In this document: positions 36,391 to 63,504 of the stretch, piece after piece | Layout of the letters: every line of letters begins with the position of its first letter | Position numbering within the stretch: the first letter of the stretch is position 1 | Source: Bombiscardovia coagulans | Lineage (GTDB): Bacteria > Actinomycetota > Actinomycetes > Actinomycetales > Bifidobacteriaceae | Length of the DNA: 64,000 nt | Assembly (NCBI RefSeq): GCF_002259585.1 | Contig: NZ_MWWS01000004.1 | Coordinates: forward strand, 1-64,000 | Reading direction: 5' to 3' | The notes under the pieces: model-generated | The model's database searches: none | The model's input: only the letters and a program-made list of their open reading frames with translations | What the model was told of the DNA's origin: nothing | Program-made: the position numbers and the translations under genes

Positions 36391-36403
36391 CTATGCCGCA
36401 TAG
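36391..36403. promoter_or_regulatory. Bidirectional element promoter CTATGCCGCATAG
   Basis: Near-palindrome giving GCATAG on both strands. Plus: 9 bases before ATG 36413; minus: upstream of ATG 36350. Same layout as at 55791. Confidence 0.55.
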
Positions 36404-36412
36404 CTCAGGAGT

Positions 36413-36715
36413 ATGAGTATTACCGATATTATGGCTACTGCATGGAAAGCTTTCTGGTCGAATGTAACCTCACCAGGATTTCTTAGTGTTTTCGTAGCTC
36501 TAGTTGTATGTTGTTTATTGTTAGGGTTTGCTTTACGTCGAACTTTACGTGCTATTGATTTCGCACTACGTGCAGGCGCGTTCCTGTTAGCAGTCACTTT
36601 TATCGTCGGAATCTTAGGTGTTCTAGGTATTCAATTTACCTGGCTTAACCCATTAATTAATTGGTTTCTTGAAATAGTTCATGCTCCCATCTATGTAGGA
36701 GTTCAGATTATATGA
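36413..36715 (+). CDS. Small membrane protein (100 aa)
   Basis: Two or three hydrophobic helices (FLSVFVALVVCCLLLGFAL, GAFLLAVTFIVGILGVLGI) and a weakly polar C-terminus. ATG 36413 follows GCATAG by 9 bases, with AGGAG in between. Overlaps the nuclease gene by 4 bp. Possibly a small subunit of the transfer channel (VirB2/VirB3-like in size), unproven. Confidence 0.65.
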   Translation: MSITDIMATAWKAFWSNVTSPGFLSVFVALVVCCLLLGFALRRTLRAIDFALRAGAFLLAVTFIVGILGVLGIQFTWLNPLINWFLEIVHAPIYVGVQII

Positions 36716-37638
36716 GTAAACGTAAAAGTCTTTTATCAACCGTTCTTGACAAGATTGTAGCGATTTTCTTAGTCTGCGTGCTTGTTGTTATTCTTATCGC
36801 TTCCGGGGGATGGAAGGCTATCAGTAATGCGTTTGGTATTGGTGATGCTGATGCTAACATACACCAGTTAACACAATCACATGAGCAACCTTCTCGCGAA
36901 AGTGATGTGCAAAGTCTTAATCAATGGTTAGGTAAAATCACTAACCCAGATCGAAAACAACCATCACATGCAAGTCAACCATCTTCATCAAACAAACGTC
37001 CTCATAGTAGCCAGTGGGGAACCAATCCTGCACTCTGGCAGGAGGCGTTAACCACTGTAGCTAGTATTCCGATAGCTCAACCACATATCGCTGGATATAA
37101 TCGCCAACAACAGTTCGGGGGATGGGCTCCAGCCGCTAGCATGTGCGGTTCAGCTACAACACGAGATGTCATTCTACAACGCGATCTTACGAATACTCAT
37201 CAAAATAAACGCTGTCAGATAGAAACAGGTGTTTTACAAGATCCTTATACGAATAAAACAATAATGTTTACGAGAGGGAAAACCACCAGCAGTAGTGTAC
37301 AAATTGACCATGTAGTCGCTTTACTGGATGCGTACGCTTCAGGGGCTCGAACCTGGGATCAGCAAAAACGTGTTCAATATGCTAACAGTCCTGATGTGTT
37401 GCTTGCAGTCGATGGGTCTGCAAATACGGCAAAAGGAGCTGGATTAGATTTTAACAATACATCGCAGTGGAGAGCCCAAAATAGTGGTGCTCCAAATATT
37501 TGGATGCCAGATAATCCTCAATATCGTTGTGATTATATTTCTAAAAGAGTCTCTATTAAACACACATGGGGGTTGACTATGAGCGCGAAAGAGAAACAAG
37601 AAACTATTCATGTGCTCAGTGGGTGCATAGCTAAATAA
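36712..37638 (+). CDS. Membrane-anchored/secreted HNH nuclease (DUF1524-like, 308 aa)
   Basis: N-terminal hydrophobic helix (IVAIFLVCVLVVILIASGGW, ~residues 13-32), a Ser/Gln-rich linker, then from ~residue 140 the domain CGSATTRDVILQRDL, VQIDHVVALLDAYASGA, VQYANSPDVLLAVDG, NTAKGAGLDF and a terminal L..GC, the conserved pattern of actinobacterial secreted HNH nucleases with the GmrSD-C fold. It acts outside the membrane. Translated together with the 100-aa membrane protein. A surface nuclease in a conjugation region could trim DNA, act against competitors or prevent DNA clumping (inference). Confidence 0.82.
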   Translation: MSKRKSLLSTVLDKIVAIFLVCVLVVILIASGGWKAISNAFGIGDADANIHQLTQSHEQPSRESDVQSLNQWLGKITNPDRKQPSHASQPSSSNKRPHSSQWGTNPALWQEALTTVASIPIAQPHIAGYNRQQQFGGWAPAASMCGSATTRDVILQRDLTNTHQNKRCQIETGVLQDPYTNKTIMFTRGKTTSSSVQIDHVVALLDAYASGARTWDQQKRVQYANSPDVLLAVDGSANTAKGAGLDFNNTSQWRAQNSGAPNIWMPDNPQYRCDYISKRVSIKHTWGLTMSAKEKQETIHVLSGCIAK

Positions 37639-37749
37639 AGCTGATAACAATACTGGTTACGGCTTGTATGACGGTACGAACAATGGTCGTATACGTGTAA
37701 ACAATTTGAATAATCTGTGGATTTTACAGTTCATTGAAGGAGGAGTGTT

Positions 37750-38322
37750 ATGTCTATTGCCTTGTTTGCAAAACAACATCGACGAGTTGAATTGATGAAG
37801 GGATATGATGCTATGCCAGATGCTACTTTGCAGGAATGCTGGCAGAGGCCTTTTTATCTGTTTGCTCGAGGTAAAGGGCGTGCCTGTCGTAAAGAGCTAT
37901 GGATGTTTGGTGTATTCGTAGCTATTATGTCTCAAGGCTTGTCAAGATTGTTTGATTCTGGTGCTCTGATTATTATTCCTACACTGTTTTCCATAGTATG
38001 TTGTATTCCTCATTATGCTCTCATGGTTCGCCGTTCGCATGATCTGATGCTGTCAGGCTGGCTGGCATTGCTACCGGTAGGTTTAACGTTTTTAGCATCT
38101 GTTATTGTCACATGCGAAAACATGCATGTTGGAGATGAAAGTCTGTTCGGTGGGTTAGCAATAGTGGCCATAGTGTTGGCTGTTCTTTCGCAGGTTCCGC
38201 TTTTGTGTTTTCCTTCCCGTTATCCTAAAACAGTAGAGGATACAGTAAATGATGAAGAACGAGATAATAGTTGGAATGCTGTTAACAGTATTCAAGTAGG
38301 TGATACTACTAGAACGTATTAA
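37750..38322 (+). CDS. DUF805-like membrane protein (190 aa)
   Basis: AGGAGGAG before ATG 37750. The YLFARGKGRACRKELWMFGVF segment, three or four hydrophobic helices and ALMVRRSHDLMLSGWLALLP (R-R-x-H-D) are the hallmarks of DUF805 inner-membrane proteins (YhaH-like). The family is of unknown function. It follows the nuclease by 111 bp and is followed by a terminator. Confidence 0.75.
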   Translation: MSIALFAKQHRRVELMKGYDAMPDATLQECWQRPFYLFARGKGRACRKELWMFGVFVAIMSQGLSRLFDSGALIIIPTLFSIVCCIPHYALMVRRSHDLMLSGWLALLPVGLTFLASVIVTCENMHVGDESLFGGLAIVAIVLAVLSQVPLLCFPSRYPKTVEDTVNDEERDNSWNAVNSIQVGDTTRTY

Positions 38323-38344
38323 CGTATAAGCTGTTGAGCGAATA

Positions 38345-38388
38345 TAGTGTCCCTCATCAATATTACAAGGTGGGGGACACTATTTTTC
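38345..38388 (+). terminator. Intrinsic terminator between convergent genes
   Basis: AGTGTCCC pairs with GGGGACACT, followed by ATTTTT; lies after the DUF805 gene and overlaps the end of 38380. Confidence 0.7.
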
Positions 38389-38685
38389 TGGTAATTCCAC
38401 TTGGTAAATGTTGCTACTGATTCGCCATACTGATGATAATAATGGGCGATGAAATAAGATAATCGTACGTTTAACGAGTTGACGGCGCATAAATCCACCT
38501 AAAGTGGAGTACTGGGCTATTATTTTACGTTGTCCTATCTTACTTATTGTTGCATCTACTGGTCTGACAACATTCTTGTCTGTCGTGTTTTCTCCTTGAG
38601 GTAAGTAAACGAAAGATACTCTACTTCCTACTTGCATGTTAAAGGTTATTGGATGTCCATCAGCATACACTTGTATTACACTCAT
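38380..38685 (-). CDS. Hypothetical protein (101 aa), downstream of TcpC-like gene
   Basis: Overlaps the TcpC-like gene by 4 bp (ATGA). Mainly beta strands (ITFNMQVGSRVSFVYLPQG, RLVKRTIILFHRPLL); no membrane helix. Probably a small cytoplasmic or periplasmic accessory of the transfer channel. Not recognised. Confidence 0.6.
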   Translation of the reverse strand: MSVIQVYADGHPITFNMQVGSRVSFVYLPQGENTTDKNVVRPVDATISKIGQRKIIAQYSTLGGFMRRQLVKRTIILFHRPLLSSVWRISSNIYQVELPEK

Positions 38686-39647
38686 GATTTATCCTTTCCG
38701 TCTTCGTTAATATTGAGCGCATTAGCATCCATAAGAGCATCATGCCAGCGGTTTGCGTACTCGGGTAGTGTAGGTCCTTGCCCTGGTGCCCCCCATGCAA
38801 GTACATGAGGTGTTCCATCAGGATTAGATACTAGTAAATCGTAAACGAATTTAGTGGGCGCTTGAGTTTCGGCTTTTTCGTGTAGAGTGACGCTTACTCG
38901 TAATACTGCGGTGTCTGATGTGTTGCCTTCGCGATTAATTTTTCCGCGCTTCAAATATGCACCATGATCAATCGTGGTGGATTGTGCTGAACCTAGCATG
39001 AGTGGCTGATATGTTGCATTCGCATCAGGGTCGGATACCACGACTTTTAAACGGTCGGGGTCGGTACTCATCCATGCTTGCCCCCATTGGGTTACTAACG
39101 TTTGTAGCGCAGCTGATGGTTGTAAATCATTTAATGTGTCAGCCCAGCTTAATGTGGTGTCTGGTTGGCTTTGTGATATAGGAGGTAACGGGTTTGCACT
39201 CACTCCTGCTACGGGTATACCGTTATCTGTGACGGTAACATGTACTTTCCACCATCTGTTTTTCTTGTTTTCAACAGTTAAATTATGGGTTCGTACGTTT
39301 GCTTGCGTATGACCATCACTCAGCGTATAAGGTTGTGAACCATCCCAGCTGACAATATGCGCGCCTTCTCCTAATGGATCACCATGTGTCAGCCAGGTTT
39401 CTACGCTTGCGTAAGCTGCTTGTTTACCTGTTGGATTGAAATCTGGGACGATTGGTTTCGGCGCTGTTGGCTGGTTGACGATTGCGCCAACAAGATAGAT
39501 AACCAGTATGAATTCGATAATTCGGATAACACGCCACCATTTAGTGCGTGCAGCCACTAGTTTTACGAATTGTTTATCCGGGTTTTCTTCTGGTTTCTGA
39601 TGGGCTCGTTGCCAACCATAGTCTGTTTGCGTTCGTTTTTTCCACAT
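38682..39647 (-). CDS. TcpC/VirB8-like conjugation protein (321 aa)
   Basis: Cytoplasmic N-terminus (~35 residues), one membrane helix (IRIIEFILVIYLVGAIVNQ, ~residues 39-57), and two external NTF2-like domains: YASVETWLTHGDPLGE...IVSW is typical of the first, and LQTLVTQWGQAWMSTDPDRL with FVYDLLVSNPDGT of the second. This matches the TcpC family of Gram-positive conjugation systems, which assemble the wall-side channel. ATG 39647 lies 8 bases behind the TCGCATAG element with no ribosome site, so the message looks leaderless. Followed by the 101-aa gene. Confidence 0.75.
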   Translation of the reverse strand: MWKKRTQTDYGWQRAHQKPEENPDKQFVKLVAARTKWWRVIRIIEFILVIYLVGAIVNQPTAPKPIVPDFNPTGKQAAYASVETWLTHGDPLGEGAHIVSWDGSQPYTLSDGHTQANVRTHNLTVENKKNRWWKVHVTVTDNGIPVAGVSANPLPPISQSQPDTTLSWADTLNDLQPSAALQTLVTQWGQAWMSTDPDRLKVVVSDPDANATYQPLMLGSAQSTTIDHGAYLKRGKINREGNTSDTAVLRVSVTLHEKAETQAPTKFVYDLLVSNPDGTPHVLAWGAPGQGPTLPEYANRWHDALMDANALNINEDGKDKS

Positions 39648-39657
39648 GTTCTCTAAC

Positions 39658-39681
39658 TATGCGAACGATAAAGCTGCATAG
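39658..39681. promoter_or_regulatory. Divergent element promoters
   Basis: On the minus strand TTCGCATAGTT stands 8 bases before ATG 39647. On the plus strand CTGCATAGAAAG (39676-39681) stands 35 bases before ATG 39716. Confidence 0.5.
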
Positions 39682-39715
39682 AAAGTAAAGACAATTCTTA
39701 GAGAAAGGTATCATA

Positions 39716-40078
39716 ATGCGTAATTATGGTGGGTTTATAGCTGCCCCGCAAATTGTTGGTCCGTTGCGTGATGGTGTCCAAAAGTTTGTTTCCACTATCT
39801 CCAGTAATAGTGGACTCATGACATTACTTATGGTAATTGGCGGTATTGTTATCGCAGTTTGTATTGCATTGTTACTGCTGAGAAAGTTTTGGCCACAAAC
39901 CCCTATAGGAAGACAAATGAATGAAGGTAACAGCAGTGTCGTATGGTGTATCGTAGCTATTTTACTGGGTACTGTACTTATTTTACCTGGTCAAATTCTA
40001 CCCTTCCTCACAGCAATTATCGCTAGTTTAGTACAGTGGGTTATTCTAAACCCTTTGAGTATGATTTTCGGTATTTAA
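39716..40078 (+). CDS. Small polytopic membrane protein (120 aa)
   Basis: AGAAAGG before ATG 39716. Two long hydrophobic helices (LMTLLMVIGGIVIAVCIALLLL, VVWCIVAILLGTVLILPGQIL) plus a third at the end. Size and position in front of PrgI/TcpE-like and VirB6-like genes suit a VirB2/TcpD-like channel subunit; family call not certain. Confidence 0.6.
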   Translation: MRNYGGFIAAPQIVGPLRDGVQKFVSTISSNSGLMTLLMVIGGIVIAVCIALLLLRKFWPQTPIGRQMNEGNSSVVWCIVAILLGTVLILPGQILPFLTAIIASLVQWVILNPLSMIFGI

Positions 40079-40080
40079 TC

Positions 40081-43584: not shown

Positions 43585-43608
43585 GAACAAATGAGCACAT
43601 GCCATTAA

Positions 43609-43676: not shown

Positions 43677-43684
43677 GCGCATAG
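43677..43684 (+). promoter_or_regulatory. Element promoter motif GAGCGCATAG
   Basis: TGAGCGCATAGA lies 8 bases before ATG 43693 with no Shine-Dalgarno between, suggesting a leaderless message. Confidence 0.6.
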
Positions 43685-45337: not shown

Positions 45338-45347
45338 GGACGCATAT
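45338..45347 (+). promoter_or_regulatory. Element promoter motif TTTGGACGCATATT
   Basis: GGACGCATAT, 63 bases upstream of ATG 45410; identical core to 19621. Confidence 0.55.
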
Positions 45348-45870: not shown

Positions 45871-45878
45871 TCGCATAG
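45871..45878 (+). promoter_or_regulatory. Element promoter motif CTCGCATAGG
   Basis: CGCATAGG stands 8 bases before ATG 45887; no Shine-Dalgarno between. Confidence 0.55.
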
Positions 45879-47362: not shown

Positions 47363-48442
47363 TTACAATCGCATTGGCATTATAATTTGTACTGGATCGT
47401 CTTCAGAACCTTTTATTTGAATCGGCTGTTTCGGGTTTTGTACTCGTATACAGACTGTATCGTTTTCGAGTGCGCTGAGCGCATCAATAAGATAAGAAGC
47501 GTTTAATCGCAAGGGTTGTGAACCACCCTCTACGCTAGCAGCCAACTGCTCATCGCCTTGCAAATCAGCGCCATTCAACGCTATCGTAAGACCATCACGT
47601 GTTGAAGACAACTTCACAGGCGTATCCTTTTGGAACATATCAATCGTTTTTAATCGTTTAACAGCCCCTAACAATGAACTACGATCTGTTTGTATAATCC
47701 ATGAAGCATCGGTCGTGGGATGAAGCTTCGACTCAAGATTCGGATATGTGCCTGCTATCAATGGGAACACATCAACAGTACGTTCGCCAACAATTTCGAT
47801 AACTCGATCGGTAACACCGAATTGTACAGCTTGAACACTGACCCTTTTCAACCATTCGGCACTGACCAGAACATCTCCCTGCCACTCACAGTTGTTAATA
47901 CTATTTTGTGCCATCCTATATCGGTCTGTGGTTTGAACAGTCAATTTTGATCCATCACCCAACAAATGAATTGCTGTTAACACGGGGGGCGTATCTTTTC
48001 CGGGATGACCAGCTGCGTGCACAACACCTGAGACCAGTCGAGATAAACTCCCAGCTGTTAACGGATACAGTCGCTCAGGCAGTACAGGCCATGGCATTAT
48101 ATCTGCTTCTCTCATTACAGCCATACTGAGTTTAGTGTTGCCGGCACTTAACAACAGTTGATGTTCTTTTGCGTTAAAATCCACATCTACTTCACCAGCA
48201 GAAAGCACACTAGTAAGAGCCGATAACCATAATCCATTAACCACGATTTGACCAGCTGAGAGAACATCACCATTTACCATGGTCTTACTCCACCCCGAAA
48301 CACCACCAGTGGTCAACACCAATTGATCAGGAGGATTAAAGTCCATGCGCAGCATTTTGTTTGCTGATTGTTTTCTATCAATTACCCCTGTTACATGTTG
48401 TGTAGCGTTCGCTAACTCTTCAGCATCAACTAATGCTCTCAT
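47363..48442 (-). CDS. dnaN: DNA polymerase III beta-clamp homologue (359 aa)
   Basis: Start at ATG 48442 (GAAAGGAAC upstream); longer frames lack support. The three-domain clamp pattern is visible: MRALVDAEELANATQHV; VNGLWLSALTSVLSAGEVDV; ALTSIHLLGD-type TAIHLLGDGSKLTVQTTDRYRMA; FPLIAGTYPNLESKL; LNASYLIDALSALENDTVCIRV; and the C-terminal IIMPMRL, the usual last residues of DnaN. It rings DNA and holds polymerase. A second clamp on a mobile element could support its own replication or recruit host polymerase after transfer. Divergent from the TraG-like gene, with TGACGCATATATA in its promoter. Confidence 0.9.
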   Translation of the reverse strand: MRALVDAEELANATQHVTGVIDRKQSANKMLRMDFNPPDQLVLTTGGVSGWSKTMVNGDVLSAGQIVVNGLWLSALTSVLSAGEVDVDFNAKEHQLLLSAGNTKLSMAVMREADIMPWPVLPERLYPLTAGSLSRLVSGVVHAAGHPGKDTPPVLTAIHLLGDGSKLTVQTTDRYRMAQNSINNCEWQGDVLVSAEWLKRVSVQAVQFGVTDRVIEIVGERTVDVFPLIAGTYPNLESKLHPTTDASWIIQTDRSSLLGAVKRLKTIDMFQKDTPVKLSSTRDGLTIALNGADLQGDEQLAASVEGGSQPLRLNASYLIDALSALENDTVCIRVQNPKQPIQIKGSEDDPVQIIMPMRL

Positions 48443-48483: not shown

Positions 48484-48505
48484 ATATATGCGTCATATGG
48501 CATAG
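48484..48505. promoter_or_regulatory. Divergent element promoters (clamp / TraG-like)
   Basis: Minus strand: TGACGCATATATATAG upstream of the clamp gene. Plus strand: TATGGCATAG abutting ATG 48506. Confidence 0.6.
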
Positions 48506-50842
48506 ATGCGTAGCATGTGGTTTCAACTTGTACCTATTCCTAAAAGTCAGCCCGATGATCAGCAAGCTTTCCTCAAACGAGCAAGACGTGCTGCTGAAGC
48601 ACTTGGATTGACCACTAGACCAACCTTCGATACTTTTATGGACGCGGCTCACCATAGTGATGGGATGATAGTGGTTGCTTCCGGCTCCTACCGGTGGATA
48701 CATGTTTGTGACAGTATGGATGAACAAGCGGTTCAAGCAGTGGCAAAAGCATGCGATAGTACAGCTATCGCGTGTGATAAACCCGTCATTCTTAATGAAC
48801 ATCTCGTGTGGGCTCATGCGGTTGTGCCGGCTTCTGCTACCTTGTCTCGAACCGCGCGCGATGAACTCGATACTGGAGAAGAAGTACGCGTAGATCCACC
48901 TGCTAACGGGCTTGTATACTTACAAGTTCGACGGCAAGGGTTCATAGAAACTCGCCGCGCTAAAAACTGGTTGGCAGACGAGTTTAATATGAGTCCTGAC
49001 ACGTCTAAACTCCAAGAAGCAGGAGTAGGAGTCAGCCGTATTGGTGCCGCGATGCCAAACCGTAAAGATGCGTTAACCCTAGCGGCATCTACGGCTAGCG
49101 CACTAGATTTAGGCTTAACTGGTTCTGGTGCTCATGTAAGCCGACCAGGGGTAGGACTGTTAGTTTCGAGCGCACTTATCTTGGCTTGCTCCCTGCTTTG
49201 TATCATGGTTTGCGGCATCATTTGGCCAGCTTTTTTCAGTATCACCTGTTTTGGTATAGCTCTCATACGGCGTATGCGCATGCATGCTGATGCGGATTTG
49301 TATCAACGACCCCGTCACCGTTGGCTACCATGGCCACGCATGCGCCGATCGCAAGCAGCTGATCTTAAAACACGTTCTGCTGGCGATGACCAGAACTGGC
49401 AAAGTAAAAAACGTGTTCATGCTTATGCGTATCAGCGCAGCACGTTGCCTATTCCAAGTGGAACCTTATTAGCGTTATGTCGTCCAGCTGACCGAGAGGG
49501 CAGTCAAACACGACTCAGTTTTTGCCCCCAGAATCTCATCCATGCCGACGGACCACGAGTTGGTGTCGATGCAGTTCAGCGGGATGTGCGTATACCATCT
49601 ACCGCAGTATGGGCAGGTATCAGCTTGTTTGGTGGTCCCGGTGGCGGAAAATCGAATACGATGCACGGTCTTGAACGATGGGCAGTGGAACATTGTACCA
49701 GCTCAGATGCAACCATCATATTCGAATCCAAAGGCTCAGATTCTGTACCTATTTTAAACCAATTACTTCAATCTCCACGATTAGTGGACTTAAATAATCC
49801 AGCAACTCCCATGATCTCATTACTAGGAGAAGGAACAACTGCACGCCAAGCAGACAGGTTTGCCTCACACATGAAAACCGCTTTAGGCGAACAACAAATA
49901 GGCCCAGCATCACGCCTTTACCTCCGCGACGCCGTATGGCTAGCATTAGAAACACTTAACAAACCATCATTACAACAAGCCTGCACAGCAGCAGGACTCA
50001 TCCAAGCCCCCAACACATGGATAGACTATGCGATGATCATCCTCGCAGGACAAGGAGCACAACAAGCAAGGGCACTCGCACATGCCACTACTATGGCAAT
50101 TCCCCATACCCCTGCCATTCTCCAAGCACTAGAACGCTTACACGGTGCAGTCAATCCACAAACAGGACGGCCTTCAATATCAGACAGTGAGCTTATTAAA
50201 CGATTAAATGCCCCTATGAACAAAATGAGTTTACTCGCTCAAACACCAGCCATTAACAGTACACACAGAAAACTAGTCACATGGCGTCAAATCATACAAC
50301 AACATACAACGCTCATTATCAACATGGGCGGCAGCGTACAACCCATAAACGATAGTCATGAATCACTACCTGATGACGTAAAAACATTGATAGGAGCCCT
50401 CCTCTTATCTGGCCTAAGAGAGGAAACAGAACGCACATGCGCCGGCTGGCAAGATGATAACAAACACGTACGAATCTTCATAGACGAACTCACCGAAGTA
50501 CTTGGCCCACATTCCAATAGAACCTCAAACACTGAAGTATTAGAATGGCTACGCAGTAAAGGACGCGCCTTTGGCGTTGAACTTACCACCGGAACACAAT
50601 ACCCAGAACAAGTAGACCAACAAACTCTCAACCTACTCCTCGGATTCGATACGGTTATCTGTTTCACTCTTAGAGACATGCAATCAGCAACTACTTTGGC
50701 TCAAACTCTGAGCATAGAACCTGAACAAATCCTACAGCTAGCAAAACATAATGCTCTTATCAAAACTGTCTCTAATCAAGCAGTCACCCTCCCAACAATG
50801 GCATTAGCCATACCACATTTTGATGCAGGAGCACCAGCATGA
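48506..50842 (+). CDS. TraG/VirD4-like coupling ATPase (778 aa)
   Basis: N-terminal soluble region, two helices near residues 215-255 (LLVSSALILACSLLCIMV, IIWPAFFSITCFGIALI), then a P-loop ATPase: Walker A SLFGGPGGGKSNTMHG (~375), DATIIFESKGSDSVPIL, Walker B HVRIFIDELTEVLGP (~655), EWLRSKGRAFGVELTTGTQ and TVICFTLRDMQSATTLAQTL, as in TraG/TraD coupling proteins. It would bring relaxase-bound DNA to the channel; no relaxase gene is in the window. No ribosome site; the ATG directly follows GCATAG. Codons become strongly A/C-rich after ~49700. Confidence 0.82.
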   Translation: MRSMWFQLVPIPKSQPDDQQAFLKRARRAAEALGLTTRPTFDTFMDAAHHSDGMIVVASGSYRWIHVCDSMDEQAVQAVAKACDSTAIACDKPVILNEHLVWAHAVVPASATLSRTARDELDTGEEVRVDPPANGLVYLQVRRQGFIETRRAKNWLADEFNMSPDTSKLQEAGVGVSRIGAAMPNRKDALTLAASTASALDLGLTGSGAHVSRPGVGLLVSSALILACSLLCIMVCGIIWPAFFSITCFGIALIRRMRMHADADLYQRPRHRWLPWPRMRRSQAADLKTRSAGDDQNWQSKKRVHAYAYQRSTLPIPSGTLLALCRPADREGSQTRLSFCPQNLIHADGPRVGVDAVQRDVRIPSTAVWAGISLFGGPGGGKSNTMHGLERWAVEHCTSSDATIIFESKGSDSVPILNQLLQSPRLVDLNNPATPMISLLGEGTTARQADRFASHMKTALGEQQIGPASRLYLRDAVWLALETLNKPSLQQACTAAGLIQAPNTWIDYAMIILAGQGAQQARALAHATTMAIPHTPAILQALERLHGAVNPQTGRPSISDSELIKRLNAPMNKMSLLAQTPAINSTHRKLVTWRQIIQQHTTLIINMGGSVQPINDSHESLPDDVKTLIGALLLSGLREETERTCAGWQDDNKHVRIFIDELTEVLGPHSNRTSNTEVLEWLRSKGRAFGVELTTGTQYPEQVDQQTLNLLLGFDTVICFTLRDMQSATTLAQTLSIEPEQILQLAKHNALIKTVSNQAVTLPTMALAIPHFDAGAPA

Positions 50843-50850: not shown

Positions 50851-50862
50851 GACGCATATAGT
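50851..50862 (+). promoter_or_regulatory. Element promoter motif TGACGCATATAGT
   Basis: GACGCATATAGT ends 4 bases before ATG 50867, too close for a Shine-Dalgarno; suggests a leaderless message and, if the product is a sigma factor, autoregulation. Confidence 0.6.
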
Positions 50863-50866: not shown

Positions 50867-51739
50867 ATGAAAACATTATCATTTGAAGACAGAAACAAGT
50901 TAGACAAAAAAGTCAGCTCTTTATCATGGACACAAGAAGCGCTCGCATTCGGTTCAGATCAGCGCAGACTCGTTGCTTCATGGGTTGTTGACACGGATTT
51001 AGTGGATTCAATTATTAGAGATTTGTTCCCGCAACCTAACCAGTGTGAGCAGATGATTGAGTTTACTAAGCCCCGCATCATTGAGAAAATCATTGGTGTT
51101 GAGCTTATTTCAAAAAGTGACATGTGGAATTGGAATAATCTGTGGGATCCTACGCGAACGACTAGTTTTTGTGCTTGGGTTCGTCGTACTAGTCGTGTTA
51201 TTGCTCTTCGCAATGCTCGCCGAGAGCTACATAAGCGTACGATTGATGACACGACATTTGAGAACGAGGAGGGTTATAACAGAGTTTGGGATGATGCTAA
51301 GAGTACTAATATATTTGAATCTCATGTGGAAAGTATTTTCGATACCGTACCGTCTTTAAAGGTTCCGCGTCCAGTAGGTGAACAACGCAAGCAATTGTTG
51401 AGTCTGCTTTCTCAAACGTCTGCATACCATACTGTTCGTTATGCGCAGCGTTTAGGATGGTGGGATTGTTCATTGGACGAGGTAGACGATGAAGTAAGTG
51501 CAGCACTATTACTTACTCCAATCAACTATAAGCAGATGGAGATACTACCCAAGATGCTACCTTCACATTGGCAGTCTTTAGGCCATTTATATGCGCCAAC
51601 CCAAGCTAAAGGTCGAGTAAGTGTAGATGAAGCCGGATTACGGCGAATGGTTTCAGAGATAGCTCAACAAGACCATTTATTAGAATGGAATGTTTGGTTA
51701 CGATTAGGTACTGCTGCCGCTCAATTAGCTGTGGGTTAA
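50867..51739 (+). CDS. Hypothetical protein with possible sigma region-2-like stretch (290 aa)
   Basis: ATG 50867 lies in frame just behind the promoter motif. Residues ~75-120 read IEKIIGVELISKSDMWNWNN, LWDPTRTTSFCAWVRRTSRV and IALRNARRELHKR, which resembles sigma-70 region 2 (F-D-P-x-R-x-x-S-F-x-x-W-x-x-x-x-x-R-x-x-A-x-x-x-x-R). A clear region-4 HTH is not visible; the C-terminal third (INYKQMEILPKMLPSHWQSL) might be a divergent one. If real, it is the obvious candidate to read the element's promoter motif. Otherwise an unknown soluble protein. The gene is T/G-rich, unlike the preceding one. Confidence 0.45.
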   Translation: MKTLSFEDRNKLDKKVSSLSWTQEALAFGSDQRRLVASWVVDTDLVDSIIRDLFPQPNQCEQMIEFTKPRIIEKIIGVELISKSDMWNWNNLWDPTRTTSFCAWVRRTSRVIALRNARRELHKRTIDDTTFENEEGYNRVWDDAKSTNIFESHVESIFDTVPSLKVPRPVGEQRKQLLSLLSQTSAYHTVRYAQRLGWWDCSLDEVDDEVSAALLLTPINYKQMEILPKMLPSHWQSLGHLYAPTQAKGRVSVDEAGLRRMVSEIAQQDHLLEWNVWLRLGTAAAQLAVG

Positions 51740-52894: not shown

Positions 52895-52924
52895 CTATGC
52901 GAGAGCGTGACGCATATATATAGT
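52895..52924. promoter_or_regulatory. Divergent element promoters
   Basis: Minus: CTCGCATAGAAG before ATG 52886. Plus: TGACGCATATATATAGTG (52908-52925) upstream of 52963. The two motif forms lie back to back. Confidence 0.6.
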
Positions 52925-54485: not shown

Positions 54486-55748
54486 CTACAGGTCAGTATA
54501 TACAGCTTTAATCCAGGAACGCATTTCTGTCAGTCTTTTAGGTGTAACCGTTTCCATTTTCCCAGTTTGCTTATTATATGTTCGCCGCGTCCAAATAGTG
54601 TGTGCTAAACGTTTGTCTCCTGGTTCTAGTTCAAGAAAACATTTAGCTGCTTCAGGAGTTAATGCCCTATGGTAGGCCACCATCCGTGCCACATTGCCTT
54701 GTCCGGAACCTGAAGAGTATGCTTCCAGCTTGGTTATACCACGGTCTTTACTAGTGAACGCACGTGAGTTTACCAGGCTCTTAGCATACTTAGTATTACC
54801 AGTACGATTTCGGACTGTACCGTTACCATAACATAATTCCCAGAATGCTTGCGCTTGTATGTGCGGCTCATTATCTAACTCATGTAATGCTTCCGTGATT
54901 TGCCGTGTAGTTTTCCTGTCGGGAACACCATTTGTTGGCTGGTATAGCATACGAAGATACGAGCGTGCAGCCGCACCCTTGGATTCACGTTTCGCTAAGG
55001 TTTTAACAACAGGTATTTTCTGTCCTGTTGAATCTCGTAGGAACCGTCCCTTTTGATCACGCTTGTATACTTTCCTGCGTTCTGTGATTACATGTCCGGC
55101 AGCATCACGAGCATCTTTCGTATAGTTGATAAACGCCCACGCACTATCAGCAGTATTCGGATAGCCTGCTCGAATAACATTTTGTGCAGCTTCAGCATCC
55201 TCATAAAATAAATCTTTGAGAATTGTAACCGCCTGATCCTGGTTTTTACGGTGTCGTAAACTATTAACTATATGAGAAGCAGGAATATAACGTCGATTAG
55301 GACTTGATTCAATTGCGTTGCGCCGCTGATATGGTGAAGCTAACCTGAAGGCTTGTTTCACTATTCTTTGCCGATACGCTTCCGATGGTATGCCAGTCAA
55401 ATCAGCATTCAACGTGTCACGTACTGCCATTCTCACGTTTTTGTCAGCACGTAAAACCTGAGCATTTAATCTAGGATAACCCTGTGCTTCAACATACAAG
55501 ATTTGCCCATTTTCATCTACCAATTCGAGCCCAGTGCCTCGAATAATCACAGACTGAGTGCCTTTAAGAAGCTCCAAAGTCTCTTGTGCAGAAAGTTGAA
55601 CCTCTGGTTCCTGAATTCGTGCACGCGTATTTACTTCATCCAATACTGGTAAATCAGCACAATGCTTTCCTACCATCACATCGAATTGGCCACCAACACC
55701 ACCGGGACTGCCAGCTGGCTTACGAGCAGGTTCACGCATCTTACTCAT
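54486..55748 (-). CDS. Tag-bearing protein (420 aa)
   Basis: Start at ATG 55748, nine bases after AAAGGAG (an ATG 6 bases earlier is too close). Residues ~8-40 carry the tag in variant form (RKPAGSPGGVGGQFDVMVG...CADLPVLD). The body is a basic, largely helical protein with KRDQKGRFLRDSTGQKIPV (a D-x-x-G-R-F-x segment), TLAKRESKGAAARSYLRML and KLEAYSSGSGQGNVARMVAY, none recognised. Large and basic, it could bind nucleic acid. Divergent from the FtsK-like gene over a palindromic promoter. Confidence 0.75.
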   Translation of the reverse strand: MSKMREPARKPAGSPGGVGGQFDVMVGKHCADLPVLDEVNTRARIQEPEVQLSAQETLELLKGTQSVIIRGTGLELVDENGQILYVEAQGYPRLNAQVLRADKNVRMAVRDTLNADLTGIPSEAYRQRIVKQAFRLASPYQRRNAIESSPNRRYIPASHIVNSLRHRKNQDQAVTILKDLFYEDAEAAQNVIRAGYPNTADSAWAFINYTKDARDAAGHVITERRKVYKRDQKGRFLRDSTGQKIPVVKTLAKRESKGAAARSYLRMLYQPTNGVPDRKTTRQITEALHELDNEPHIQAQAFWELCYGNGTVRNRTGNTKYAKSLVNSRAFTSKDRGITKLEAYSSGSGQGNVARMVAYHRALTPEAAKCFLELEPGDKRLAHTIWTRRTYNKQTGKMETVTPKRLTEMRSWIKAVYTDL

Positions 55749-55790
55749 CCTCATATACTCCTTTAGACAAGAACATATTTACAGGAGTAT

Positions 55791-55802
55791 CTATGTGCAT
55801 AG
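55791..55802. promoter_or_regulatory. Bidirectional element promoter CTATGTGCATAG
   Basis: Near-palindrome yielding CATAG on both strands. Plus: 9 bases before ATG 55812. Minus: upstream of 55748. Confidence 0.5.
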
Positions 55803-59123: not shown

Positions 59124-59155
59124 CACTCTTACCTAGCATCCAATAAACAATCAGA

Positions 59156-59365
59156 TTAGCGTTGCGAAAACAAGCGAGTCAAACGATTACCCCACACTCG
59201 CATAATCCACCAAGGACCAATAAACAGGGCACCAGTAAAGAACAAGCTTGACCATAAACGAGATGAACTGCCAATAGCTAAAACAATCAACCCACTGGCA
59301 ACCACCCCTAAGAGAAGAGTAAACCAACGCGAACAACCTTGTTGTTTTTCATTAATTTTGTGCAT
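59156..59365 (-). CDS. Small two-helix membrane protein (69 aa)
   Basis: Helices WFTLLLGVVASGLIVLAIGS and LFFTGALFIGPWWIMRVW, with basic ends. ATG 59365 follows GGACGCATATATAAAGT directly, so the message starts at or next to the ATG. Located between FtsK-like and VirB4-like genes; probably a minor channel subunit. Confidence 0.65.
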   Translation of the reverse strand: MHKINEKQQGCSRWFTLLLGVVASGLIVLAIGSSSRLWSSLFFTGALFIGPWWIMRVWGNRLTRLFSQR

Positions 59366-59369
59366 ACTT

Positions 59370-59382
59370 TATATATGCGTCC
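59370..59382 (-). promoter_or_regulatory. Element promoter motif TTGGACGCATATATA
   Basis: Minus strand: TTGGACGCATATATAAAG ends one base before ATG 59365, leaving no room for a ribosome site. Confidence 0.65.
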
Positions 59383-59426
59383 AATTTGCATGCCCAACTA
59401 TCGAAAGGTGAAACACTATCACTTTC

Positions 59427-59434
59427 ACGCATAG
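59427..59434 (+). promoter_or_regulatory. Element promoter motif TCACGCATAGTT
   Basis: CACGCATAGT stands 7-8 bases before ATG 59443 of the VirB4-like gene, supporting that start over upstream codons. Confidence 0.6.
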
Positions 59435-59442
59435 TTTCCAGC

Positions 59443-61998
59443 ATGACAGCTATAGAAACAGCAGGCACATTTGCTAGACATCAAGGACAAGGATTCGTAC
59501 GTACCATCGACGGGTCCGCATGGCTCTATTGGACACTACCTTCACAACCCAGCGTCAGAGACGCAGGATCATGGTCCGATAAACTCAAAGCTGCCCGCCC
59601 AATCCAAGTAATCCTCCCTGCACTAGCAGCATTAGCACCACGAGTTCCACTCATGGGACGTAAAGTCGCCAAAAGTTTCTACCGGCACATCCACATCCTA
59701 GCTATAGCCACACCACAACCATACAAACCCAGCGACAATCTAGACACCGAAAGCCGAATACGACTACAACGAATATACGCAAACACCCCAGAACACGACC
59801 GCTTCACACTCGTCGGCGTTCGACTAAACAGCGGCGGTGAAAAACACCAAGGATTTTGGAGCAAAGTAGCATCCTGGATCAACCAAGCCGAAACAGACGA
59901 AGACGGAACAGGCATACCAGACGAAGCCTTCAACACCGACCGAACACGTATCCAACACATATTCCAAGACGCAGGATGCAGACCACCAACTGAACACGAA
60001 ATGCGCCGCGCACTAGCCTGGTGGCAAACCAACCGAATGCCAGAAACCGTACCAATCATGGTAGAACACGAACACATGCACACCTTCCCCAACATCCAAT
60101 CATGCCGACTAGGAGAAGACCTAAGAAATACCCGCATCGACTGCACCACCTGGAGCAAACGAATACAAGGCTCATACCCAATGACCATCGTATCCTTAGG
60201 ATCCCTACCATTCCAAGGCCAAGATGAACGCAACGAACCAGACGCAGACTGGGCAGCCACACTACTCGCAAGCGCTCGCGGTTCTGGGCAGGGTGCTTTA
60301 GCATTATCTATTAGGGGTTTAGTTGAACCCGGTGAAGCTAGTAGAGAGCAAATTGATAAAGATAAGCAGAATGTGCTTGATAAAACATTGAAGCAGCTAG
60401 AAGATAATCATAAAACTAATGTTAGTGTTGCTAATGATTTATCTGAAGTTGATGACATTTACCAAGTGAATGGTCGCCCGTGGCCAACATTGATTGATGC
60501 TCATGTGCATGTAGCTATTCCTGATGTGATAGATCAGCCTAATAAAGTCATGTATCCGGGAGAGGTTCGTTTAAATCCAGATCGGCAGGAAGCTGCGTTT
60601 CAAGATATGATGATAGGAAGTAGCATTTCATATAATCCTTCTCCTGTTTATTGGCCAACCCCGATTTTAGCGTTTGCTGGCCTGTCTGGAAGGTCTGTTG
60701 CAGGCGAGGATATGGGACGGGTGCGTAAAAAGGTTAAAGGTCGTTCGATACCTCTTCCAGGTGCTCTTCCTGGCGCTCTGCTAGGTTTTTCCGAGTCTGA
60801 TCGCCTTCCTGTGTACTGTTCGCCGTTCGCATCTAGGTTTTTGCATTGTCCACCAGGGTTACTTGTGTTATCACGAACCGGTGGTGGTAAAACACGTGTT
60901 ATGCTTCATTTAGCTTCTCAATGGTCACTATTACGCAATCCTGATAATCCATCACAAGGTATTCCTGGAGTGTTTTTTGATCCGAAACCGAATTCTGATG
61001 ATTTTGAACCATTCGTACATAGTCAAAACGGTAATATTTACAGGCTTGACGATCCTAAATCTGAAGCGTTACTCGACCCGCTACGTTGCATGCCTGCCAC
61101 CATGGGAGAAGAACGGGTACAAACAGCAGTGGAACTGTTGGGACAAATTCTAGGTGGCGAATACGGTGACAGACAGCTTGAACTCGCGTTAACCTCTATT
61201 ATTGGGTATGGAATACGACATGGGGCAGACTGCACAGGTATAGCCGTACAACTAGCCTATGAAGCGTACGAAAATAAAGCGACAGATTACGAAACAATTA
61301 GTCCGAAAGTCGCTACCATTTATCCTGAGCTCAAACGTTTTGCTTTAAACCAGCCGATGTTTCGACTCATATACGGCACAAAACCCGGTGGAATGCAGTT
61401 AAGTATTTCTAATGGTTTGACACTCATTTCTGCTGGCACTATGAACATTATTGGAGAGGGAACACAATCAGTTCCAAACGCAGTACAACGATGGGTAGTG
61501 CGTATGGCAGCTTTAGGTGGTGCCGCATCCATTATCGGACGGAATGGATATATTGCCATGGATGAAGCTTGGTCACTACTCGGGGACCCGTATGGAGTTT
61601 CTGTAGCCAACCGCATGGGACGACTTGCCCGCGCTCAACATTACATGTTCATGATGGCATCCCAAAAGGTTGACGAATTCGCAGATGCAGGATTAGAAGA
61701 TTTCGTCGGACGTTTCATTGTTCTCGGTATGGGGTCAAAAAATGAGTTAGCAGGGCGTAAATCTCAAGCTGAATCAGTGCTGATGCTTACCAACCAACAA
61801 CATAATGATCGCATGAGAGAACGTATCACTCATGATCAAGTTACAGATACAGATTCTAATACTCCTGATTGGGATAGCTTGTTTGCCTTGTTTGACCCAG
61901 ACACTGGTCAACTCTTACGAGGCTCTATCGGATACTATATAGGCGTTGACCGGTCAGCTATTCCTGTAGAAATTAACGTGTCTAACACTCTGGTATGA
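59443..61998 (+). CDS. VirB4-like conjugation ATPase (851 aa)
   Basis: Start at ATG 59443 behind the promoter motif. N-terminal ~450 residues are soluble; the C-terminal ATPase has Walker A VLSRTGGGKTRVML (~480), GVFFDPKPNSDDF, Walker B NGYIAMDEAWSLLG (~705), then RAQHYMFMMASQKVDEF. The MDEAW...LL box with the following helix is diagnostic of VirB4/TraC energisers. It powers channel assembly and substrate transfer, partnered by the TcpE-like protein. Odd: codon use switches sharply near 60275, from A/C-rich to T/G-rich, inside one uninterrupted gene. Confidence 0.88.
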   Translation: MTAIETAGTFARHQGQGFVRTIDGSAWLYWTLPSQPSVRDAGSWSDKLKAARPIQVILPALAALAPRVPLMGRKVAKSFYRHIHILAIATPQPYKPSDNLDTESRIRLQRIYANTPEHDRFTLVGVRLNSGGEKHQGFWSKVASWINQAETDEDGTGIPDEAFNTDRTRIQHIFQDAGCRPPTEHEMRRALAWWQTNRMPETVPIMVEHEHMHTFPNIQSCRLGEDLRNTRIDCTTWSKRIQGSYPMTIVSLGSLPFQGQDERNEPDADWAATLLASARGSGQGALALSIRGLVEPGEASREQIDKDKQNVLDKTLKQLEDNHKTNVSVANDLSEVDDIYQVNGRPWPTLIDAHVHVAIPDVIDQPNKVMYPGEVRLNPDRQEAAFQDMMIGSSISYNPSPVYWPTPILAFAGLSGRSVAGEDMGRVRKKVKGRSIPLPGALPGALLGFSESDRLPVYCSPFASRFLHCPPGLLVLSRTGGGKTRVMLHLASQWSLLRNPDNPSQGIPGVFFDPKPNSDDFEPFVHSQNGNIYRLDDPKSEALLDPLRCMPATMGEERVQTAVELLGQILGGEYGDRQLELALTSIIGYGIRHGADCTGIAVQLAYEAYENKATDYETISPKVATIYPELKRFALNQPMFRLIYGTKPGGMQLSISNGLTLISAGTMNIIGEGTQSVPNAVQRWVVRMAALGGAASIIGRNGYIAMDEAWSLLGDPYGVSVANRMGRLARAQHYMFMMASQKVDEFADAGLEDFVGRFIVLGMGSKNELAGRKSQAESVLMLTNQQHNDRMRERITHDQVTDTDSNTPDWDSLFALFDPDTGQLLRGSIGYYIGVDRSAIPVEINVSNTLV

Positions 61999-62010
61999 CG
62001 CATATATAAT
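61997..62010 (+). promoter_or_regulatory. Element promoter motif GACGCATATATAAT
   Basis: GACGCATATATAAT ends 3 bases before ATG 62014; the best -10 match (TATAAT) in the set. It overlaps the stop codon of the VirB4-like gene. Confidence 0.7.
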
Positions 62011-62013
62011 GGT

Positions 62014-62268
62014 ATGGCAAATATTACGACATTAACAACAGCACAAGCTGTCAGTTTAGAGCACATCATCCAAATTATGCGTTCATATGGTTTTGACCAT
62101 GAAGGACAGGGAATACGTTCTTCGAACGTTCATATCGAAAATCATGAGTCATATATTGTTTTTTGGCTGGAAAGTGAACAATCAATAGCCAATGGAACAT
62201 TAAATAGGAACGGCAAAGGCTTGTGGTGGCTTCGAGAAGAAGCACAACAAACTATTCACGTCCAGTAA
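62014..62268 (+). CDS. Small hypothetical protein (84 aa)
   Basis: ATG 62014 with TATAAT only 3 bases upstream, hence a leaderless start. Residues HIIQIMRSYGFDHEGQGIRS and YIVFWLESEQSIANGTLN; soluble, alpha/beta, unrecognised. Independently promoted although only 15 bp after the VirB4-like gene. Converges with 62252-62404. Confidence 0.6.
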   Translation: MANITTLTTAQAVSLEHIIQIMRSYGFDHEGQGIRSSNVHIENHESYIVFWLESEQSIANGTLNRNGKGLWWLREEAQQTIHVQ

Positions 62269-62404
62269 TAATATGGTACAAGCCTATAATGATACCGAGG
62301 ATGTAACCAATAACATTGATTATAAAATTGAATGCCCACTTGAAAACAACCAAAAAAATCAATCCAATAATGGCACCGATAATGAACGCTATAGTGAAAA
62401 CCAT
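62252..62404 (-). CDS. Small hydrophobic membrane protein (50 aa)
   Basis: Start at ATG 62404, after GAAAGGAAGG; the longer frame to 62458 would run through the promoter motif. The product MVFTIAFIIGAIIGLIFLVV... is almost entirely hydrophobic with one or two helices. Probably a minor membrane subunit of the transfer region. Confidence 0.6.
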   Translation of the reverse strand: MVFTIAFIIGAIIGLIFLVVFKWAFNFIINVIGYILGIIIGLYHIITGRE

Positions 62405-62430
62405 AATGAACACCTTCCTTTCACTATTTA

Positions 62431-62440
62431 TTATGCGTCC
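62431..62440 (-). promoter_or_regulatory. Element promoter motif TCGGACGCATAATA
   Basis: GGACGCATAA on the minus strand, 26 bases before ATG 62404. The preceding bases ATGCAAAATT resemble those before 59370 (ATGCAAATT). Confidence 0.55.
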
Positions 62441-63486
62441 GAATTTTGCATCATCCATTCATTATGCCACTGTTCAACCATTTTCGGATTCAAATGAAGG
62501 CTTTTTGCAACTTTCTTCCTATCAAGATCCTTCGCGAATACTTCATTAAACAAAGCCTGTAAATCCAGTTTTGCTTCAGCACTAGGTTCAACACCGATAG
62601 ACGGTATATCCTCTTGTACCTCTACTTTTTGTTCAACACCAGCAGATAAGAGATCATTAACTCTCTCTCCACGAAGAACTTGCTGCCCCCTTTTAAACAT
62701 GACTTCAAAATCTTTACGACCGTTATATACTCTTCCATCAGGAAGCCGTTTTACACTGTCAGGACGCTTTGTATGAGGATTAGCGTTACGCCCATCTGAT
62801 AGTCTCATACCTCCACCAAAAGAAACTCCTCGAACAATTTTATCGTTGATAAATTCCATCATATTCTCATCCCATAGTTGATCACGTATATGCGATGGAG
62901 GCAAACCTCGTGTATGATGATCAATTTGCCATTGTTGAACACGTTGTTGGTATCGTAAACCAACTCTCATTTTATGCTCAGTCAGATTCCATGGTGGTAG
63001 TCGTAACACTCGTTGTATTTTCACTGGTGCTTTAACTGCGCTTGCAACGAGCTGAGGACTATAACAACGAGTCGGATCTATCGCTATCGCCTGACGTAAC
63101 CCAGCTAATCTTTCAAATAAATATCGTTCAGCTTCGCGTTGAGCATCAGAAACATTCAGCAAAAACTTGTTTAATTCACGAACCAATGGGCCAGGTTGAT
63201 CATTACTCCCTAATGCTTGTTCAACTAGCGCCATTTCTTGCTCTGGAGTACAAACCGGCTGATCGCGATAATCTGCGCTCAACCCAGGTTGAGTAGCCCG
63301 CAAATTAGATGCTAGCCACCGCCATTGTTTGTCATGACTGTCTAACTCGTTATACAAGCTGATTCTATTGCGTTTTGACTTCGGATTGTTTAAAACAGGC
63401 AAATCGCTTATATCATGCGACTTATAGTCATACTGTCCACCAGTGCCACCAGGGCTATGTTTTGGTTTTCGTGATGTGTTGCTCAT
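62431..63486 (-). CDS. Tag-bearing protein with C-terminal HTH-like end (351 aa)
   Basis: Start at ATG 63486, 9 bases after GAGCGCATAG. The tag is RKPKHSPGGTGGQYDYKS...SDLPVLNN. The body is helical and charged, with LDSHDKQWRWLASNLRATQP, PWNLTEHKMRVGLRYQQRVQ, and near residue 230-270 LSDGRNANPHTKRPDSVKRL, RVYNGRKDFEVMFKRG. The last ~25 residues (DRKKVAKSLHLNPKMVEQWH) look like a helix-turn-helix. Not recognised as a family. Another example of the common tag on a distinct body. Confidence 0.75.
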   Translation of the reverse strand: MSNTSRKPKHSPGGTGGQYDYKSHDISDLPVLNNPKSKRNRISLYNELDSHDKQWRWLASNLRATQPGLSADYRDQPVCTPEQEMALVEQALGSNDQPGPLVRELNKFLLNVSDAQREAERYLFERLAGLRQAIAIDPTRCYSPQLVASAVKAPVKIQRVLRLPPWNLTEHKMRVGLRYQQRVQQWQIDHHTRGLPPSHIRDQLWDENMMEFINDKIVRGVSFGGGMRLSDGRNANPHTKRPDSVKRLPDGRVYNGRKDFEVMFKRGQQVLRGERVNDLLSAGVEQKVEVQEDIPSIGVEPSAEAKLDLQALFNEVFAKDLDRKKVAKSLHLNPKMVEQWHNEWMMQNSDA

Positions 63487-63494
63487 GACAAGCA

Positions 63495-63504
63495 ACTATG
63501 CGCT
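63495..63504 (-). promoter_or_regulatory. Element promoter motif GAGCGCATAGTT
   Basis: Minus strand, 9 bases before ATG 63486. Almost the same as the element at 43677. Confidence 0.6.

Follow-up and report, generated by a model that had tools for sequence, protein, structure and literature searches.

Why are so many genes of one conjugative module in a bifidobacterial genome preceded by the same short sequence, and what might read it? The question is raised by the first 64,000 nucleotides (nt) of contig C10 of Bombiscardovia coagulans (family Bifidobacteriaceae; genome of 1.74 Mb, labelled G000), which we call the window and which contains most of a predicted conjugative element extending to about C10:82,600. 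An earlier interpretation of this DNA from its letters alone (the sequence-only reading) had proposed a promoter motif spread over the whole element and served by one dedicated regulator or sigma factor. Our analysis indicates that the motif is probably a private promoter family of these conjugative elements, read by a divergent sigma factor that the elements themselves encode. The first candidate for the reader is sigma-like protein 1 (P0002, the product of the gene at 50867); a second candidate, sigma-like protein 2 (P0001), is encoded by a gene that runs past the end of the window.

The core of the motif is over-represented in the window. CGCATA occurs 51 times (30.1 expected), ACGCATAT nine times (2.58 expected) and GCGCATAG six times (1.68 expected), and 0 of 100 shuffles of the window reach any of these counts. 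Genome-wide, 17 copies of GACGCATATA were counted, 11 in the C10 element, two on contig C8, one on contig C14 and three elsewhere, and the reversed control pattern has no copy in the genome. Both C8 copies lie in the first 12.6 kb of that contig, which is motif-bearing DNA with a repeat in common with the window's element, and the C14 copy lies about 0.7 kb from a tRNA-Lys gene.

The placement of the core is more informative than its abundance. Spacing was counted between the first base of CGCATA and the A of any ATG starting an open reading frame (ORF) of at least 60 amino acids (aa). In the G000 element there are 4, 7 and 3 sites at 14, 15 and 16 nt, and none at 11-13 or 17-20 nt. These 14 sites compare with 0.74 expected (p 8.5e-14) and put CGCATA at rank 1 of 1,472 hexamers; ORFs and expected counts were produced by scripts of our own, and all such p-values are approximate because ATGs can be nested and frames overlap. 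A 120 kb sample of the G000 chromosome with 886 ATG starts has no site at this spacing (0.62 expected), and one appears there once ORFs of 50-59 aa are admitted. Most of the intervals between motif and ATG are, by eye, free of a Shine-Dalgarno sequence, the site at 36397 being an exception. Because the start codon stands at a fixed spacing with mostly no Shine-Dalgarno sequence in between, the mRNAs are predicted to be leaderless. As a stand-alone marker the pattern CGCATAGN8ATG was rejected, as it occurs in 180 of 189 family genomes at low counts (9 against 3 for the reversed control in G000, 12 against 4 in G141), and some genomes of the same genus exceed the control.

The peak recurs in related elements. 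Backbone gene homologs were identified in G057 (a single region of about 100 kb), G040 (two contigs, G040C1 and G040C10) and G031; these comparison elements are stretches of DNA, some of them partial, and G031 and a further stretch, G140, are partial or unusual cases. In the G057 element, which has 66% G+C, 26 CGCATA copies lie 14-16 nt before an ATG where 2.84 are expected (p 9.7e-17, rank 1 of 2,334 hexamers). The corresponding counts are 9 against 2.0 in G040C1, 10 against 2.1 in G040C10 and 9 against 1.6 in G031, and in these three CGCATA ranks 4-5, behind Shine-Dalgarno-like hexamers and GCATAG. An 80 kb sample of the G057 chromosome (1,008 ATG starts) shows no peak (1 against 0.72), nor does the plasmid pMP7017 (3 against 2.5). 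The core is unchanged between elements of 45% and 66% G+C. The positional peak, its recurrence in related elements and its absence from the sampled host DNA and from pMP7017 together give good support to the proposal of a dedicated, element-wide promoter set.

A weight matrix was built from 45 G057 and G040 sites and applied to the G000 element; its training sites were chosen by the CGCATA core, so that it tests placement and flanks and not the core. The 11 top-scoring hits all lie at most 68 nt upstream of an ATG-started ORF, the 12th (41693) is intragenic, and lower hits are mixed. Counted by gene, the motif precedes 16 of 26 backbone genes in G000, and 12 of 23, 8 of 23 and 5 of 8 orthologs in G057, G040 and G031, respectively (NGCATA accepted). 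Ahead of the VirB4-, 48506- and ParA-like genes it is kept in every one of these elements in which an ortholog was found. More distant stretches with VirB4 homologs have no site at 14-16 nt (G154 and G029), one (G174) or six (G173; 1.6 expected, p 0.006). Five of the six in G173 precede ORFs of 62-128 aa, so the absence there is not clean.

Most of the gene starts to which the sequence-only reading had assigned the motif do carry it. Among the 23 starts listed, 18 have an exact CGCATA upstream (36413, 43693, 45410, 45887, 50867, 52963, 59443, 62014, 380, 31024, 19704 and, doubtfully, 20832; on the minus strand 39647, 48442, 52886, 59365, 62404 and 63486). Another three carry a correctly spaced GCATAG variant, namely 48506, for which the ATG at 48515 is the better start, 55812 and 36350 on the minus strand. 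The assignment fails for 39716, where a TGCATAG is present without RGT|R at 14/15 nt, and for 55748 on the minus strand. Back-to-back arrangements exist, as described, at 36391, 48484, 52895 and 55791. The statement that genes translated by overlap with an upstream gene lack the motif is right for 36712, 40036, 40483, 51736 and 53487, which overlap or abut the preceding gene, and does not account for 39716, 44629, 54083 and 55748, which lack the motif without such an overlap. By the rule of our script 10 of the 26 backbone genes are without the motif, a count that includes 36350 and its GGCATAG variant. The spacing to the ATG, the site at 35471 on the minus strand, the sites past the window, and the initiator and two sub-classes described below are additions to that reading.

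At the leaderless sites the base before the ATG is a pyrimidine in 14 of 14 cases in G000, 25 of 26 in G057, and 9 of 9 and 10 of 10 in the two G040 stretches, compared with 61-64% for all ATG starts. At 11 of the 19 GACGCATA sites in the C10 and C8 element parts no ATG stands at that distance; these sites, three of them copies of a single repeat, are here termed leadered. RGT|R occurs exactly 14 or 15 nt from the core at all 11 leadered sites and at five of the eight others, against a background of 0.034, and nine of the 11 have a Shine-Dalgarno-like stretch ahead of the later ATG. The predicted +1 is thus the same whether or not a start codon stands there, a point in favour of a promoter and against a translation signal. 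The best reading of the motif is a -10-type promoter with a predicted transcription start 14-16 nt downstream and many leaderless mRNAs. Its core would be [T/G]GACGCATA[T/C] or NGCATAG, and transcription would begin where a pyrimidine is followed by a purine (Y|R). An mRNA would be leaderless if this junction coincides with an ATG and would otherwise have a leader of some tens of bases, and adjacent inverted copies would serve divergent genes.

No convincing -35 box was found by positional information, by 5-mers in the interval -32 to -8 or by TTGACA matching, and the earlier statement that none recurs is borne out with a small reservation that is taken up below. The mean best match to TTGACA at sites and at random is 2.77/2.89, 2.73/2.62, 2.56/2.71 and 2.80/2.70 in the four elements. 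The 5-mers that do recur upstream in several elements (ATGCG, TATGC) are pieces of inverted motif copies. Head-to-head copies are common, and in the tightest cases the cores abut (G057 23760/23766, G040C1 20548/20554 and 31098/31104, in joined-stretch coordinates), so that a -35 box of one gene would fall on the start codon of the other. TANNNT is in place at 6 of 71 sites (3/26, 2/26, 1/9 and 0/10). The motif sites thus lack the canonical bifidobacterial arrangement of TTGACA about 17 nt upstream of a TATAAT or TANNNT -10 box, and the caveat that some hits could be ordinary -10 boxes is disfavoured.

The sites divide into two sub-classes. Cores preceded by A are mostly followed by a base other than G, and cores preceded by another base mostly by G (10 G and 27 other against 22 G and 2 other among 61 pooled leaderless sites, p 8.3e-7). 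Sites followed by G are also spaced longer (mean 15.66 vs 14.76 nt, p 1.6e-6). Taken one by one, G000 (p 0.0047) and G057 (p 0.00018) show a significant split and G040C1 (0.52) and G040C10 (1.0) do not, and 12 of the 61 sites are mixed, belonging to neither class. Non-leaderless control sites lean the same way in G000 (p 0.084; p 0.26 in G057), which is perhaps explained by leadered class A sites within that control. Class A (GACGCATA[T/C]) is found ahead of both sigma-like genes, DnaN, the integrase, 62014 and the RecT/SSB region, and class B (NGCATAG) ahead of most motif-bearing transfer-type genes, ParA and 63486; the VirB4 site in G000 is mixed. Orthologs of class B genes retain NGCATAG wherever the motif was found, and DnaN and 62014 retain class A in G057. 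For P0001, G000 and G057 have a class A promoter, and G040 and G031 a mixed one (GACGCATAG).

Which protein could read such promoters? The gene of P0002 is preceded by its own motif and is predicted to be leaderless. P0002 matches no curated family, and searches of Pfam, NCBIfam and PDB sequences with it returned no sigma family; by eye, its LWDPT..TSFC.WVRR stretch resembles sigma region 2. With an AlphaFold2 model built from three sequences, ranks 1-8 of a Foldseek search of the PDB are sigma factors or chains of sigma-containing complexes. In the VIA structure comparison, 50 of 50 rows are sigma factors or initiation-complex chains; many of these titles name the complex alone, and it is our reading that the matched chain is sigma. 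Examples are sigma-S region 2 (Z 8.1, 3.1 Å, 92 residues) and the SigE N-terminal domain (77 of 77 residues, 2.5 Å). In a viral structure library ranks 2-7 are annotated sigma factors and rank 1 is unnamed. The predicted fold is that of region 2 of the sigma-70 family. The C-terminal 133 residues, folded alone (predicted local distance difference test, pLDDT, 80.8), have sigma-A domain 4 as their top two VIA rows (Z 3.3 over 62 of 62 residues and Z 2.8 over 62 of 65). Profiles were also compared by hhalign with sets of sigma factors of relatives (17 of 18 chosen loci, L114 being dropped over a wrongly taken reading frame), and the region-2 alignment of P0002 beats 60 of 60 column shuffles both with the extracytoplasmic function (ECF) set and with the mixed set. 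Among 189 family genomes, four have a P0002 homolog, set in motif-bearing DNA; in an evenly drawn sample of the class only its own genome has one (1 of 394), and a search of plasmids returned none.

The case for P0001 began by eye with a sigma-2-like stretch. It was demoted by a sub-threshold Pfam match (Sigma70_r2, E=0.088) and divergent homologs, and partly restored by hhalign, which gives 39.6% to the ECF set in region 2 (higher than all 60 column shuffles), 14.7% to the mixed set and no region-2 match to the sigma-70-type set. This similarity to region 2 appears weaker than the predicted sigma fold of P0002. Homologs of P0001 are found in 4 of 189 family genomes (G000, G031, G040 and G057), with motif-bearing DNA. 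As a lone query it has no relatives in the viral or genome contig collections, and alignment-based searches for sigma-like proteins led to one locus in Bifidobacterium cuniculi LMG 10738 (L045) and two (L088 and L089) on an IMG/VR contig close to G057. Searches of PDB sequences with alignments of both proteins gave weak unrelated matches only. The genome itself has two sigma factors that Pfam recognises at E 0.001.

On the reading that we favour, the host core RNA polymerase would be directed to the motif promoters by an element-encoded, very divergent sigma factor. P0002 is the first candidate, and its own promoter would permit self-activation before the module is switched on; P0001 may read one of the two sub-classes. 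The proposal of one dedicated regulator or sigma factor therefore stands in kind, as P0002 models as a sigma factor and P0001 has a weaker similarity to sigma region 2, but there seem to be two sub-classes and two sigma-like proteins.

Several results weigh against this reading. The P0002 model has a mean pLDDT of 62.5 from its three sequences (ten-residue blocks of residues 1-120 range over 52-93, with 8 of 12 at least 80), its best Foldseek E is just 0.16, and the VIA tool warns that Z under about 13 can reflect a common arrangement in helical proteins. The top Foldseek hits of the C-terminal part are not sigma factors, domain 4 appearing at ranks 4, 5 and 21 with E of at least 5.4. The hhalign probability of P0002 is low (8.2% for the mixed set, 1.4% for the ECF set), and the sigma-70-type set gives no region-2 match. 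G031 has the motif without a 50867 homolog; it is also without a 48506 homolog, so that half of the element may be missing. The 50867 orthologs in G057 and G040 have no promoter by our script's rule (G040 has CGCATC at 15 nt). The 80 kb stretch of G140 speaks for the reading in that four of its five leaderless-type sites (ORF of at least 50 aa) fall within 3.5 kb around the 50867 homolog, and the sole other match there to proteins of the window's element is an integrase, at 27%. The peak over these 80 kb is weak, however (4 vs 1.07, p 0.024), and one of the four clustered sites opens just a 50-aa ORF. Lastly, at least five matches to TTGACA are seen at 4 of 71 sites where about 1.4 are expected, a small excess.

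An unlikely alternative is that the host housekeeping sigma factor reads the motif as an unusual -10, with an element-encoded activator or repressor bound to the GACGC/CGCATA part. Bifidobacteria do make leaderless transcripts, which account for 15% of start sites in B. pseudolongum (PMC4782308). The near-palindromic double sites could be operators, and the related plasmid pMP7017 is described as having its own 34-bp motif that overlaps the -10 of several genes (PMC10832533). However, the mean TTGACA match is at the random level, TANNNT is seldom in place, the core does not change with G+C, the sampled chromosome has no peak, and the account of pMP7017, a plasmid of the same family, gives it canonical TTGACA-n17-TATAAT promoters (PMC10832533). 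A translation-level signal, such as an unusual ribosome or start-codon cue, would suit the fixed distance to ATG at many genes. We consider it very improbable, because all of the leadered sites share core and initiator where no ATG stands, most of them with a Shine-Dalgarno-like stretch before the later one, and because head-to-head copies serve divergent genes.

Somewhat less credible than a role for the housekeeping factor is that P0001 alone is the cognate factor and the 50867 product has another role. P0001 is present in each of the four genomes where the motif peak and transfer genes occur together, always with a GACGCATA promoter 14-15 nt before its start, and of the two proteins it scores better in the profile comparison with region 2 of ECF sigma factors. 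Yet no P0001 was detected in G140, whose 50867 homolog lies amid motif sites, the Pfam match of P0001 is below the cut-off, and part of the G057 homolog also matches the 62431-63495 product, which itself has no Pfam match. Within the preferred reading, of an element-encoded sigma factor with P0002 as first candidate, a two-step cascade can be imagined, which we regard as speculative and rather doubtful. P0002 would activate itself and read class A, P0001 made from a class A promoter would read the class B transfer promoters, and the clamp would possibly couple late promoters to replication. If true, the cascade would resemble early and late phage transcription, and both proteins would be sigma families that Pfam models do not recognise.

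If the preferred reading is right, conjugative elements of Bifidobacteriaceae carry their own sigma factor or factors, with a promoter code that is kept across very different G+C contents. It would hint at how an element of this type is kept silent before a whole module is expressed, would offer a private promoter tool for work on bifidobacteria, and would add to the sigma family members that the sequence models used do not detect. The two promoter classes make a temporal programme of an integrated element directly testable. Among the matches listed in the library searched, no title indicated a publication on the motif GACGCATA or on sigma factors of Bifidobacterium mobile elements.

Table 1. 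Predicted promoter sites and candidate regulatory genes of the element (window positions unless given as C10; ATG distances counted from the core)
Feature	Position	Strand	Remark
Sigma-like protein 1 (P0002), 290 aa	50867..51739	+	region-2-like at residues 8-122; weakly region-4-like at residues ~220-290
Sigma-like protein 2 (P0001), 370 aa	63504-64616 (L009:3504-4616; runs past window end)	-	region-2-like N-terminus
DnaN-like sliding clamp	47363-48442	-	DnaN domains on 47366-48442
Class A promoter GGACGCATATAGATAAGT|G	324..331	+	within 300-bp repeat; before 380
Class A, leadered	19623..19630	+	before 19704
Class A, repeat copy of 324 site	30968..30975	+	before 31024
Class A, leadered	45340..45347	+	before 45410
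Class A, leadered	48486..48493	-	before DnaN-like clamp gene (start 48442-)
Class A	50852..50859	+	14 nt before ATG of sigma-like protein 1
Class A, leadered	52910..52917	+	before 52963
Class A	59373..59380	-	14 nt before ATG 59365- (69-aa ORF)
Class A	61998..62005	+	15 nt before ATG 62014
Class A (GGACGCATAA), leadered	62432..62437	-	before 62404-
Class A	C10:64630	-	14 nt before ATG of sigma-like protein 2
Class B CGCATAG	35466..35471	-	15 nt before ATG 35456- of FtsK-like ORF 33579-35519
Class B variant GGCATAG, leadered	36391..36397	-	before 36350-; AGT|G at 15 nt; overlaps divergent 36397 site
Class B	36397..36402	+	16 nt before ATG 36413
Class B	39658..39663	-	16 nt before ATG 39647-
Class B	43678..43683	+	15 nt before ATG 43693
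Class B	45872..45877	+	15 nt before ATG 45887
Class B variant GGCATAG	48499..48505	+	16 nt before ATG 48515 of P-loop ATPase gene (48506)
Class B	52896..52901	-	15 nt before ATG 52886- of ParA-like gene
Class B variant TGCATAG	55796..55802	+	16 nt before ATG 55812 of FtsK-like gene
Mixed class CACGCATAG	59428..59433	+	15 nt before ATG 59443 of VirB4-like gene
Class B	63497..63502	-	16 nt before ATG 63486-

The genes downstream of these promoters were named from family matches. The ORF 33579-35519 has an FtsK_SpoIIIE match and the 55812 gene one just under the cut-off, both being called FtsK-like; the 59386 ORF (ATG 59443) is VirB4-like by an AAA_10 match and a weak TIGR VirB4 match, and the 52104 gene (start 52886-) is ParA-like by a CbiA match. 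The 48506 gene encodes a putative P-loop ATPase and may be VirD4-like, as read from its P-loop, its PHROGs matches being weak. Homologs of the DnaN-like clamp occur in the motif-bearing G057 and G040 elements, and none was found in five comparison stretches (pMP7017, G154, G173, G174 and G029). Beyond the window, a sortase gene (C10:64705-65805) and SSB and RecT-like genes were recognised by family matches.

At the element's far end an integrase gene, C10:80970-82253(-), adjoins tRNA-Pro C10:82608-82682(-), as expected of a putative integrative conjugative element. The contig begins close to a repeat, so the left end is not in view. A tRNA-Pro (ggg) gene lies at one end of both the G057 region (L031:13993-14068) and the window's element (L010:2608-2682), and both have the same conserved neighbour, a 476-aa ORF (C10:82848-84278) with 71% identity. 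This common tRNA and neighbour suggest that the two elements share one integration site. The G057 element contains or adjoins an array of 21 predicted tRNA genes (G057:C1:1120001-1140000; L076:580-9037), one of which has the anticodon CTA.

Some further features of the element were noted. A 300-bp repeat with the promoter GGACGCATATAGATAAGTG occurs at 26-325 and 30670-30969 of the window and at C8:1-830 (L011). The ORFs after the two window copies (538-1782, integrase-like, and 31182-31898, Cas5-like) agree over 19 codons from the start and differ from there on, a pattern suggestive of an exchange of promoter and 5′ end from one gene to another. An N-terminal module resembling RKPKxSPGGTGGQYD is shared by four proteins with otherwise different bodies (30469-30834, 35673-36350, 54486-55754 and 62431-63495, all on the minus strand), and similar N-termini are found in G031, G040 and C8; the module could be a transfer or localisation signal. 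The cargo includes Cas5-like (31182-31898) and Cas6-like (31898-32587) genes, and pMP7017 also has type I-E genes. The ORF 20793-26345 encodes an 1850-aa protein with, by eye, a signal-peptide-like start and with 41% identity over 1,265 residues to a pMP7017-encoded stretch.

Leaderless promoters of bifidobacteria likewise start at the start codon, and are reported to have a -35 and TATAAT-type sequence bias in all four species analysed, whereas the element has a private core without a -35 (PMC4782308). The promoters of pMP7017 are given as TTGACA-n17-TATAAT, and its 34-bp motif is of different sequence (PMC10832533). pMP7017, distantly related through its transfer genes, has VirB4-, FtsK- and 48506-like genes in common with the element at 26-30% identity, and at E 1e-3 neither sigma-like protein has a counterpart on it.

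The late promoters of phage T4 have a core sequence that differs from the element's. The likeness lies in promoters without an upstream or -35 element, the small TTGACA excess aside, and in the sliding clamp that the element also encodes. In the T4 late system of gp55, gp33 and gp45, gp55 recognises late promoters that have no -35 and the clamp activates them (PMC2988020; PMC7892883). The T4 late polymerase is described as lacking region 4, whereas P0002 may have one (PMC2988020). The co-occurrence of clamp and motif recalls the clamp-activated late transcription of T4 and is a lead; a role of the clamp in transcription here is conjectural.

A sigma factor encoded by an element, with a regulon that spans it, would be of a known kind, for which the nearest case is SigN (ZpdN) of the Bacillus subtilis plasmid pBS32 (PMC6751061). 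No SigN promoters were found in the host chromosome by the authors of that work, and SigN activity was shown in vitro, whereas sigma activity is inferred for the element (PMC6751061). The ECF homology of SigN is weak but visible, and its promoter consensus has both a -35 and a -10 (PMC6751061), while no -35 was found here and the element's sigma-like proteins are past the reach of the curated models used. Unlike SigN and its regulon, the element has many predicted leaderless genes, two promoter sub-classes and possibly two sigma-like proteins.

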